From: an uncultured Spirochaetales bacterium | GTDB taxonomy: Bacteria > Spirochaetota > Spirochaetia > Sphaerochaetales > Sphaerochaetaceae | Length of the DNA: 36,159 nucleotides | Direction: 5' to 3' | Assembly: GCA_949285785.1 (NCBI GenBank) | Contig: CASEAG010000009.1 | Span: 1-36,159 of the forward strand | In this document: positions 6,107-11,928 of the stretch, in pieces | Numbering within the stretch: position 1 is the stretch's first letter | Layout: each line of letters opens with the position of its first letter | Position numbers and translations under genes: made by a program | The notes under the pieces: generated by a model | Databases searched by the model: none | What the model saw: only the letters and a program-made list of their open reading frames with translations | What the model was told of the DNA's origin: nothing

Positions 6107-7465
6107 TCATACATAACCCTGGGCGATCATGGCATCCGCCACCTTGAGGAAGCCAGCGATGTTCGCGCCGTCGACGAAGTTGTTGTGCTCGCTGTATCTG
6201 TCGGCCGCCGACTTCGCGCTCTCGTAGATCCCCTTCATGATGCCCTGCAGCTTCTGGTCGACCTCCTGGCTTGTCCACTTGAGACGCATGGAGTTCTGGC
6301 TCATCTCGAGGCCGGAGACCGCCACGCCGCCGGCATTCGCCGCCTTGGACGGGGCGAGGAGGACGCCCTTGTCGAGGAAGAGCCTCTCGGCTTCTGCCGC
6401 ACAGGGCATGTTTGCTCCCTCTCCGACCAGCCTGATGCCGTTCTTCACGAGGTTGGCCGCATCCTCCGCATTGATCTCGTTCTGTGTCGCGCAGGGGAAT
6501 GCGTAGTCCGCCTTGATGTCCCAGATGGGGTTGGCTCCGTTTCCTGTCCGGGGAATGTATGTGACACCCTTGTACTTCTCCGCATATTCGCTGATCCTGC
6601 CGCGCTTGACGTTCTTCAGCTGCTTGACGTATGCGAGCTTCTCGGGTGTGATGCCCTCTTCGTCGTAGATCATGCCGCTGGAGTCGGACAGCGTGACGAC
6701 CTTCGCACCGAAGGCGTTCAGCTTCTCGACGGTGAACTGGGCGACGTTTCCGGAACCGGATACCAGACAGGTGCTTCCTTCCAGCTTCCTGCCTTCGCCG
6801 GCGAGTATCTCGTTGCAGAAATAGACCAGGCCGTATCCTGTCGCCTCGGGGCGGATGAGCGAGCCTCCGAATGACTGGCCCTTTCCCGTGAGCACCCCTG
6901 TGAATGAGTTGGTGATCTTCTTGTATTGTCCGAAGAGGAAGCCGACCTCCCTTCCGCCGACTCCGATGTCGCCTGCGGGGACGTCCGTATCAGGTCCGAT
7001 GTGCCTGAACAGCTCGTTCATGAAGCTCTGGCAGAACCTCATGACCTCGGCATCGCTCTTGCCCTTGGGGTTGAAGTCGCTTCCGCCCTTGCCGCCACCC
7101 ATTGGGAGGCCTGTGAGGCTGTTCTTGAACACCTGCTCGAAGGCCAGGAACTTCATGATGGAGAGGTTTACCGACGGATGGAAGCGCAGCCCGCCCTTGT
7201 ACGGGCCGAGTGCAGACGACTGCTGCACCCTGAAGCCGCGGTTTATCTGGAGACGTCCCTCGTCGTCCATCCATGGCACGCGGAAGATGATCGCCCTTTC
7301 GGGCTCCACCATGCGCTCGATGACCTTGTGATAGGTCACCTCCGGCAGTTCATCGACGATCTTGTCCATGGACAGAAGGAATGTGTAGACAGCCTGCTGG
7401 AACTCCTTCTGGTCCGGGTCAAGCTGACAGACATGCTGATATATCTGTTCCGTCAACTGGTTCAT
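6107..7465 (-). CDS. gdhA: NADP-type glutamate dehydrogenase
   Basis: The 452-residue protein is a hexameric (small-subunit) glutamate dehydrogenase, interconverting 2-oxoglutarate plus ammonium and glutamate. Substrate-binding Lys90 (GPYKGGLRFHPSV), catalytic Lys126 (PMGGGKGGSDFNPKG) and the catalytic Asp166 in PAGDIGVGGRE are all present. The C-terminal Rossmann domain contains GSGNVAQF. Length and motifs fit the anabolic NADP-dependent type, although coenzyme choice is inferred. The start at 7465 has a GGGGG tract 8 nt upstream. In an anaerobe this is a main route of ammonium assimilation. The upstream gap (7466-7730) is AT-rich and shared with the divergent lipoprotein gene. Confidence 0.97.
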   Translation of the reverse strand: MNQLTEQIYQHVCQLDPDQKEFQQAVYTFLLSMDKIVDELPEVTYHKVIERMVEPERAIIFRVPWMDDEGRLQINRGFRVQQSSALGPYKGGLRFHPSVNLSIMKFLAFEQVFKNSLTGLPMGGGKGGSDFNPKGKSDAEVMRFCQSFMNELFRHIGPDTDVPAGDIGVGGREVGFLFGQYKKITNSFTGVLTGKGQSFGGSLIRPEATGYGLVYFCNEILAGEGRKLEGSTCLVSGSGNVAQFTVEKLNAFGAKVVTLSDSSGMIYDEEGITPEKLAYVKQLKNVKRGRISEYAEKYKGVTYIPRTGNGANPIWDIKADYAFPCATQNEINAEDAANLVKNGIRLVGEGANMPCAAEAERLFLDKGVLLAPSKAANAGGVAVSGLEMSQNSMRLKWTSQEVDQKLQGIMKGIYESAKSAADRYSEHNNFVDGANIAGFLKVADAMIAQGYV

Positions 7466-7644: not shown

Positions 7645-7676
7645 GATCGATTCACATTACGAGGCCCCCGATGCCC

Positions 7677-7704
7677 TTGACAAGAAGGCGGGGGGGGGTA
7701 GCCT
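7677..7704 (+). promoter_or_regulatory. Lipoprotein promoter with a G9 homopolymer in its spacer
   Basis: A perfect TTGACA (7677-7682) is followed after 16 nt by TAGCCT (7699-7704), which keeps the T, A and final T most important in a -10 box. The spacer contains nine consecutive G (7690-7698). A start about 7 nt downstream would leave a leader of about 20 nt carrying the AAAGGAG ribosome site (just before 7722) used by the ATG at 7731. Each G gained or lost would change the -35/-10 spacing by one base. This resembles Treponema pallidum genes whose expression depends on poly-G length. Confidence 0.6.
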
Positions 7705-7730
7705 TCCAGCAGAAAAAGGAGATGAATCTG

Positions 7731-8873
7731 ATGAAGAGACTGCTTGTCCTGCTGCTGGCATCAATGATGCTGTTCGCCTTCGTCGCCTGCGACGACAACA
7801 CCCCGGATCCTCCTGCAGCCGAGGAACCGACGCCGACACCGGAGAATCCGGATAAGCCCAACCCGGATAACCCCGATCCGGATGTTCCAGAGGTATGTGT
7901 GCATGCCAAGCTGATTGATACCTCGATCACTGAATATTTCGATGCAGAAAAGCATTACCCCAAGAGCGGTATCTGTGCATCATGTGGTGAGGAGGTCACA
8001 CGGGATGCCATTTCAATCTCGACGGCAGATGAGCTGATGACTCTGGCTGAGGACATGGACAAGGAGAATGCATATGATCTGGGCTGTTATACGATCTCGA
8101 TTCTTGCTGACATCGACATGGCCGGCGAGAATTGGCCTTCTCCCGAGCTCAACGGGTACAGTGCTCCTCATAACAATAAGGACTTCGTCATCAACGGAAA
8201 CGGCCATACCATTTCCAATTTGACTGCAGGCGATAACGAGACGACGGAAGCCCAGGGCTTCATCGGTTCTATGTGGAGTGATGTCACTCTGGAGATCAAC
8301 GATCTTACTCTGGAGAATGCACAAATTACCGCAAACAAGGGAAATGGCGCGGGACCGGGAATCGGCGGTTTTGTCGGAAATATAGACTCATCTCCATCAG
8401 TGAAGATTTCGGGATGTAGCCTTCTGAATTCCAAGATCACCGGTGGCCACTGGGCTGGCGGAATCTATGGTTATGCTTCTGGGTATGATAAAGTCAACGA
8501 TGGGCCTGTCCATACTAGGATCAATATCTCCGACTGCACTGTCGATACTGTAGCCATCAAAGGTGATGACACTTCTGTCGGTGGTGTCATGGGGCATGCC
8601 GGTGGAAACAAGGATACGACTATTACAGTGACCGACACCACTGTGACCGGATGTACCATCACGACAGAAAACACGACAAGCGCCAAGGCCGGTGCCGTGC
8701 TTGGTACCAATGGAGTGGGCGATGTTACACTGGAGAACGTCAAATACGATGATGGAAACACCGTTTCTTATGGAAATACTACGAATAATGACCGAGCTTA
8801 TGGCCGTCTTGTGTTCAACGGTGTTGGTTCCTTGACCATCGATGGTGATTCAGTGCTTGAAGAGACTAACTGA
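7731..8873 (+). CDS. Surface lipoprotein with beta-helix-like repeats
   Basis: The 380-residue protein starts with a lipoprotein signal peptide ending in the lipobox FVAC, with Cys20 the lipidated residue. A Pro/Asp/Glu/Asn-rich spacer (about residues 21-54) follows. Then comes a short segment with CVH and, about 25 residues later, CASCGEE, resembling the C-H...CxxCG modules of surface proteins from gut bacteria. The rest is Gly/Thr/Asn-rich with recurring glycine turns (GFIGSM, GGFVGN, GGIYGY, GGVMGHAGG, GAVLGTNG) between short beta strands, as in GLUG-type or pectate-lyase-like right-handed beta-helices. The ATG at 7731 was chosen because it gives the signal peptide and a 9-nt spacing to AAAGGAG. 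Base composition is more AT-rich than the neighbours, suggesting fast evolution or acquisition. Adhesion or ligand binding is inferred. Confidence 0.8.
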   Translation: MKRLLVLLLASMMLFAFVACDDNTPDPPAAEEPTPTPENPDKPNPDNPDPDVPEVCVHAKLIDTSITEYFDAEKHYPKSGICASCGEEVTRDAISISTADELMTLAEDMDKENAYDLGCYTISILADIDMAGENWPSPELNGYSAPHNNKDFVINGNGHTISNLTAGDNETTEAQGFIGSMWSDVTLEINDLTLENAQITANKGNGAGPGIGGFVGNIDSSPSVKISGCSLLNSKITGGHWAGGIYGYASGYDKVNDGPVHTRINISDCTVDTVAIKGDDTSVGGVMGHAGGNKDTTITVTDTTVTGCTITTENTTSAKAGAVLGTNGVGDVTLENVKYDDGNTVSYGNTTNNDRAYGRLVFNGVGSLTIDGDSVLEETN

Positions 8874-8918: not shown

Positions 8919-8955
8919 TTGCCGGAGCCGGTTGCGGTTCCGGCAATTGTCTTCT
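8919..8955 (+). terminator. Terminator of the lipoprotein gene
   Basis: The stem TTGCCGGAGCC/GGTTCCGGCAA with a 6-nt loop is followed by TTGTCTTCT. A smaller hairpin CCGTC/GACGG (8881-8900) precedes it. Confidence 0.75.
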
Positions 8956-10869: not shown

Positions 10870-11928
10870 ATGAAAAAAGCTTTGGCTCTTCTCCTTGCGG
10901 TCCTGACAGTGTTCGCATTCGTCAGCTGCGGTGGAGATGATGAGGCTGCTTCCGCTTCCACGACGAGCAGCACGACGGCTTCCACTTCTTCGGCTCCTGC
11001 CCAGAAGACGGTGACCCTGATTCTTTCCGAGGTCCACGCTGAAGGCTACCCGACGACTCTTGCAGACTACGAGTTCGCTCGCCTTGTCGAGGAGAGGACC
11101 GAGGGCAGAGTCAAGATCAACGTCTACTCCGGCGGAACGCTGTATGGTGAGGAGACCGGTTCCATCGAGGCTCTCCAGATCGGCGACCTCGACTTCGCAC
11201 GTGTCTCCGCTTCCCCTGTCGCTTCCTACGTTCCTGCTCTGAACGTGATCCAGCTTCCCTATCTCTACAGGGACGGCGACCACATGTGGCAGGTTCTCAA
11301 CGGACCTATCGGCCAGGAGATGCTGAACGAGATCGAGTCTTCCGGTTCCGGACTCATCGGTCTGTGCTACTACGATGCAGGTGCTAGAAACTTCTACACC
11401 ACGACTCCCGTCCAGTCCGTCGCCGACATGGCCGGTCTGAAGATCAGACTCCAGAACAACGCGATGATGGTCGAGATGGTCCAGCTGCTCGGCGGCAACG
11501 GTGTCACCGGAATCGGACCCAACGAGGTCTACTCCGCAATCAGCCAGGGAACCATCGACGGTGCAGAGAACAACTGGCCGACCTACGAGTCCATGGGCGA
11601 CTACGAGGCTGCTCCCTACTTCATCCTCGACGGACACACCAGGGTTCCTGAGATCCTTCTCGCTTCCGCCAACGTCGTCAACAAGGTGAGCGCAGAGGAC
11701 TGGGAGATCATCAAGGAGTGCGCCAAGGAGACCCAGGAGTACGAGATCGAGCAGTGGGCTCTCCGCGAGGAGTCTTCCCGTGAGAAGGTCGTCGCCGCCG
11801 GCGTCACCGTCTACGAGCCGACCGCAGAGGAGCTCGCCGAGTTCCAGGCCAAGATGGATCCCATCTACGCCGAGTACGGCGCAGGCTACGAGGACATGAT
11901 CGAGGAGATTCTCAACACCGGTCTTTGA
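10870..11928 (+). CDS. dctP: TRAP transporter substrate-binding lipoprotein, DctP family
   Basis: The 352-residue solute-binding protein has a lipoprotein signal ending FAFVSC (Cys20) and a Ser/Thr/Ala-rich linker. Its DctP fold includes the segment GLKIRLQNN, whose Arg (about residue 193) corresponds to the Arg that binds the substrate carboxylate in this family. The stretch GTIDGAENNWPTY and the following GHTRVPE resemble members that bind sugar acids or hydroxy acids rather than sialic acid; this is an inference from motif memory. GGAGG lies 8 nt before the ATG at 10870. Being anchored to the membrane, it delivers an organic anion to DctQM. A strong promoter upstream and a hairpin downstream favour higher expression than the membrane subunits. 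Confidence 0.95.
   Translation: MKKALALLLAVLTVFAFVSCGGDDEAASASTTSSTTASTSSAPAQKTVTLILSEVHAEGYPTTLADYEFARLVEERTEGRVKINVYSGGTLYGEETGSIEALQIGDLDFARVSASPVASYVPALNVIQLPYLYRDGDHMWQVLNGPIGQEMLNEIESSGSGLIGLCYYDAGARNFYTTTPVQSVADMAGLKIRLQNNAMMVEMVQLLGGNGVTGIGPNEVYSAISQGTIDGAENNWPTYESMGDYEAAPYFILDGHTRVPEILLASANVVNKVSAEDWEIIKECAKETQEYEIEQWALREESSREKVVAAGVTVYEPTAEELAEFQAKMDPIYAEYGAGYEDMIEEILNTGL

Follow-up and report, generated by a model that had tools for sequence, protein, structure and literature searches.

The lipoprotein gene described here is preceded by a run of nine G residues inside the spacer of its predicted promoter, and the same arrangement stands before 12 further lipoprotein genes in the genome and before hundreds in its family. 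We consider it likely, from the comparison of sequences, that this gene is phase-variable through slippage between its -35 and -10 elements, with random on/off switching of a surface lipoprotein. The G9 tract would make the spacer of a sigma-70-type promoter hypermutable, and slipped-strand mispairing in replication would cause G residues to be gained or lost. The distance between the -35 and -10 elements would thereby shift from 16 to 15, 17 and so on, RNA polymerase would initiate at A7711 well or poorly and, as the outcome, the surface lipoprotein would be switched reversibly and at random. Given the repetition of the design, the set of surface lipoproteins displayed would vary at random from cell to cell. 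A promoter-spacer switch at a surface lipoprotein was what the preliminary description had proposed, and it is strongly supported by comparison: in addition to the promoter anatomy, the sequences point to recurrence of the design, a link to lipoproteins and length differences between near-identical copies.

Table 1. Features of the lipoprotein locus and its neighbours in the window (the whole stretch of 36,159 nucleotides that was analysed).
Feature	Position	Strand	Remark
-35 element TTGACA	7677..7682	+	TTGACA also kept in the genome's six-gene family
G9 tract, presumed hypermutable part of the 16-nt spacer 7683-7698	7690..7698	+	Paralogues and other-genus homologues have tracts at the same place
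-10 element TAGCCT (TANNNT type)	7699..7704	+	T6 conserved in two genera
Predicted initiator CA, transcript start A7711	7710..7711	+	YR step peak at the matching offset in two genera
Shine-Dalgarno AAGGAG	7716..7721	+	
Lipoprotein gene, 380 aa, ATG 7731	7731..8873	+	Lipobox FVAC signal peptide, Pro-rich linker, beta-rich body
Terminator-like hairpin	8919..8946	+	12 pairs, 8 GC; consensus match only
Divergent glutamate dehydrogenase gene, neighbour of the lipoprotein gene	6107-7465	-	
Cyclase-like gene, neighbour on the other side	from 9073		

When the sequence was re-read, both hexamers, the G9 run and a spacing of exactly 16 were precisely as first described (Table 1), and the start proposed at 7711 falls on a conserved initiator step, C7710-A7711. 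TAGCCT matches TATAAT at only three of six positions, albeit including the key ones T1, A2 and T6, which is why the promoter was not listed by a consensus promoter scan. Since the gene is flanked by a divergent gene and a cyclase-like gene, and ends before a terminator-like hairpin, it is probably a single-gene unit of its own. The window holds a second lipoprotein-like gene (10870-11928), which is without a G/C tract of this kind, and no match to phage DNA was found.

The predicted product consists of a lipobox signal peptide, a Pro-rich linker and a beta-rich (beta-helix-like) body. The body bears a weak likeness to Pectate_lyase_5 ('putative pectate lyase-like adhesive domain'), at an E of 0.002 that misses the curated cut-off, and an NCBIfam search with the protein returned no family. 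AlphaFold, run on the one sequence, gave a model with a beta-rich centre and a mean pLDDT of 56, whose best PDB match (3n6z, TM 0.40) is too weak for naming a function; our guess is that the protein may be a surface adhesin. The tract is associated with lipoproteins well beyond this locus. With a single lipobox rule, and tract genes taken as those with a G or C run of at least 8 at -90 to -12, 77 of 104 tract genes (74%) were lipoprotein-like versus 39 of 429 others in the same stretches (9%), the Fisher p of about 3e-40 being nominal because paralogues are among the genes and some loci had been retrieved through their match to the promoter pattern. This proportion and the lipobox signal peptide of the present gene are compatible with surface components, whose exposure on the cell is presumed.

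Taken alone, without its context, the G9 run is no more than chance. In dinucleotide shuffles of the window G8 matches averaged 1.46, and 34 of 100 shuffles reached the observed number; the genome holds 19 runs of at least eight G, about 60 being predicted by a first-order chain. The argument thus depends on the context of the run and on its recurrence. The composite TTGAC-N-G8-TANNNT gave one match in 24 Mb of simulated strand, or approximately 0.2 expected per genome. In pattern searches, from which the genome-wide counts derive, the genome yielded eight matches to TTGAC-N-G7-TA and 13 G/C tracts before lipoprotein genes.

Five paralogues with the same signal peptide but, for the most part, another passenger domain were recovered from this genome by protein search, and all five carry G8-G10 at the same place, within TTGACAAG-N-Gn-TAGCCT. 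At six loci (L001, L009 and L014 to L017) promoter, leader and signal peptide hardly differ, and the mature domains are for the most part unrelated; by their sequences, the shared parts appear to be a module joined to different passenger domains. Of the 19 runs, 13 stand about 20-75 nt ahead of a predicted lipoprotein gene and within its promoter spacer. Seven of these 13 tracts fall outside the TTGACAAG family, three are C runs on the coding strand (at C7, C25 and C35), and the set varies in base (G or C), in length (8-10) and in position on the 5' or 3' side of the spacer. Read by eye from aligned promoters, the total spacer is nevertheless 15 (n=2), 16 (n=9) or 17 (n=2), so that spacer length, more than the tract itself, stays constant; part of this agreement may stem from the choice of hexamers, as some are weak (TTTACT at C7, TTGAAA at C21). 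In other species of the genus, four loci with similar lipoproteins downstream (L003, L004, L006, L012) have an A7-A9 run directly before TAGCCT, and these A-run promoters are without a good -35 at normal distance.

Among 139 genomes of the family, 57 contain TTGACN{1,20}G8TA, at about 307 sites (the sum of the listed counts) and with up to 14 in a genome, and the reversed pattern gave zero matches in every one of the 139. The family is presumably Sphaerochaetaceae, as the relatives include no second family of this order. At the level of the class the pattern occurs in 114 of 395 genomes, the reversed control giving single matches in 14; family f24 is rich in it (up to 20 per genome) and family f19 is nearly without it.

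Several further loci came to light in these comparisons. At L118 (G007:C24:9841-14966) four G9/G10 promoters lie within about 5 kb, three before lipoproteins and one before a GntR-like regulator that would, from its promoter, itself be switchable. A G9 in the 5' portion of the coding sequence of a secreted protein (MRRRLISAMLLILTTSCLFATRGGG; L018 1500-1508 minus, G000:C5:41619, and L063 1501-1509 in G011) has equal length in both species and is a candidate translational switch. Three G9 runs that lie within or close to genes encoding a DPPY methyltransferase motif (L064, G004:C1:9765; L095, G011:C3:19094; L066, G007:C1:136209) raise the possibility of phase-variable DNA methylation. Finally, the end of a repeated element (GTCTACCTTNNGGGGGTCAGTTCA) lies a few bases upstream of the G run in six of nine copies found (L371, L375, L378 and L379 in G001, L376 in G088 and L374 in G096), a pattern that would fit a preference of the element for poly-G promoters when it inserts. 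We presume that these ends resemble those of the IS3/IS150 type.

Evidence that the flanking hexamers act as a promoter comes from bases that the search left free, as the pattern fixed only 'TA' after the tract. T was found at position 6 of the -10 element in 24 of 26 unique sites of the genus to which this genome belongs (g1) and in 59 of 61 sites of genus g31. The frequency of a pyrimidine-purine step is highest exactly 7 nt beyond this T, at 0.73 in g1 and 0.70 in g31, the values at most other offsets being 0.1-0.25 (about 0.15). Together, T6 and a step at fixed offset indicate that the flanks behave as a promoter, with the peak as expected of a transcript start; on these comparative grounds the hexamers would be a real promoter. 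In a third genus, g79 (family f24), T6 is present in 39 of 43 sites and there is no initiator peak at the 7-nt offset.

The spacer mode is 16 in g1 and 19 (18-21) in g31. One added G turns the spacer of 16 into 17, and in g31 one or two G residues would have to be lost; no single optimum of 17 accounts for both modes, and we count this against our preferred explanation. Either most g31 copies are OFF or the optimum differs there; an effect of spacing on transcription is itself presumed from the design. At the g31 loci L181-L236 this mode of 19 exceeds the usual sigma-70 range, though the -10 and initiator are conserved as well as elsewhere. As a guide to the ordinary spacer we sought perfect TTGACA-N12..23-TATAAT in the genus, where there was no excess over the reversed control, making the count uninformative.

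Tract length differs between copies that are otherwise almost the same. Among promoter pairs from the same genome, with no more than one mismatch upstream and 5/36 downstream, the number of G residues differs in 16 of 25, including pairs with exact flanks in G060 (G8/G9 and G8/G11), G063 (G9/G10) and G062 (G9/G10). The compared copies are paralogues and species rather than strains, and slippage within one population is what such differences would suggest. Most of the genomes are MAGs, in which an individual count could be wrong by one G, and several of the copies stand at contig ends. A cross-species pair with near-identical flanks, L296 (G065, G8) and L299 (G062, G9), differs as well, the promoter position of its tract being less clear because the run is 64 nt before the start. 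The gene of L294 carries G9 in L201. In g31 homologues of the lipoprotein (43-54% identity) the G run is kept (G6-G10) and the rest of the promoter is unrelated. The closest orthologue, in the nearest relative genome, G011 (CALXKL01), has an interrupted G run (GGGGGAGG), which we count against our explanation and which may perhaps be a locked form. As mutS is present in all 16 genomes checked, there is no sign that the rate of slippage was raised through loss of mismatch repair, and we rejected mutS loss as a cause of instability.

We also weighed other accounts of the tract. It is rather unlikely that it is a selected but fixed element, be it structural (A-form-like DNA) or the site of a regulator that binds G runs, without meaningful switching. 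The lineage-specific spacer modes and the narrow tract mode of 9 do suggest a set-point, and the flanking bases are partly conserved too. Such an element fits poorly, however, with copies that have identical flanks and different lengths, with C runs in place of G runs, with tracts on either side of the spacer and with the interrupted tract of G011. We find it quite improbable that length alters regulator access or the -10 region, as opposed to the -35/-10 distance, even though poly-G length and a CRP homologue work jointly at tprE/G/J of T. pallidum (PMC7864442). A consensus -35 stands upstream of the tract here, a conserved -10 and initiator stand downstream of it, and what is constant in the present genome (G000) is the total spacer, not the length or place of the tract.

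A translational switch, in which an upstream ATG (7671) or TTG (7677) would read through the tract into the lipoprotein frame, is highly improbable. The reading frame 7671-8873 is indeed open across the tract, but a good Shine-Dalgarno sequence precedes ATG 7731 and the N-terminal extension would precede the signal peptide. Furthermore, the C38 paralogue has an in-frame TAG right after its tract, and because a stop codon in frame separates the tract from the start codon in 81 of 122 lipoprotein promoters, the tract is not generally part of a translated frame and a translational switch is refuted as the general mechanism. The chance that the run is accidental or an assembly artefact is practically negligible. 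Although a G9 alone is expected in a window of 58% GC, recurrence at the same place genome-wide and family-wide, with reversed controls of zero, refutes this with respect to the existence of the tract; the exact count of nine is an assembly reading only.

There is precedent for spacer slippage as we propose it. The mechanism itself is already known from porA, opc and TP0126, and what is notable here is the number of genes and their spread. Two T. pallidum systems had been invoked in the preliminary description, and one of them holds: in TP0126, an OmpW homologue, the poly-G lies between -35 and -10 and transcription is best at 17-nt spacing (PMC7864442). As in our case, this is a spirochaete outer-membrane protein gene with the tract in the spacer; unlike our case, it belongs to a different family, whereas here the products are lipoproteins, the design is repeated up to 14 times per genome and promoter and signal peptide are common to unrelated passenger domains. 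In N. meningitidis porA, poly-G in the -35/-10 spacer likewise controls transcription by spacing (PMC7864442), but porA is a single porin gene of a proteobacterium and ours is a multigene set of spirochaetes. The G9 locus resembles TP0126 and porA in that a homopolymer of at least about 8 lies wholly between the two elements. The tpr comparison did not carry over, as the layout differs. The tprE/G/J and tprL genes also have poly-G in surface-protein promoters, of variable length in vivo, but their tract covers part of the -10 or stands immediately before the start. The tprL start is the fourth base after the tract, whereas the start predicted here is the thirteenth; the tract neither overlaps the -10, which follows it, nor abuts the start. 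The poly-C of N. meningitidis opc is also a promoter homopolymer, to which the C-run versions in this genome are similar, but the opc tract encompasses the -35 region.

In a literature search with subscription papers and preprints outside its coverage, we found no published reports on such switching in this family and nothing that joins Sphaerochaeta or Brachyspira with phase variation. With roughly even confidence, we propose that poly-G spacer switching is a widespread spirochaete system of surface variation and not a peculiarity of syphilis. A transferable module of promoter and signal peptide would drive up to 14 genes per genome in this family, or 20 in f24, giving commensals a combinatorial lipoprotein coat of which T. 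pallidum would keep a remnant. What began as one anecdotal poly-G thus becomes a collection of candidate switches across the genome that is open to testing: G counts from existing metagenomes could tell whether each lipoprotein gene is ON or OFF. The set points to which surface proteins gut-type spirochaetes vary. It also suggests that random surface switching via promoter spacing is common in these spirochaetes, so that a system of the T. pallidum kind could be studied in harmless relatives.
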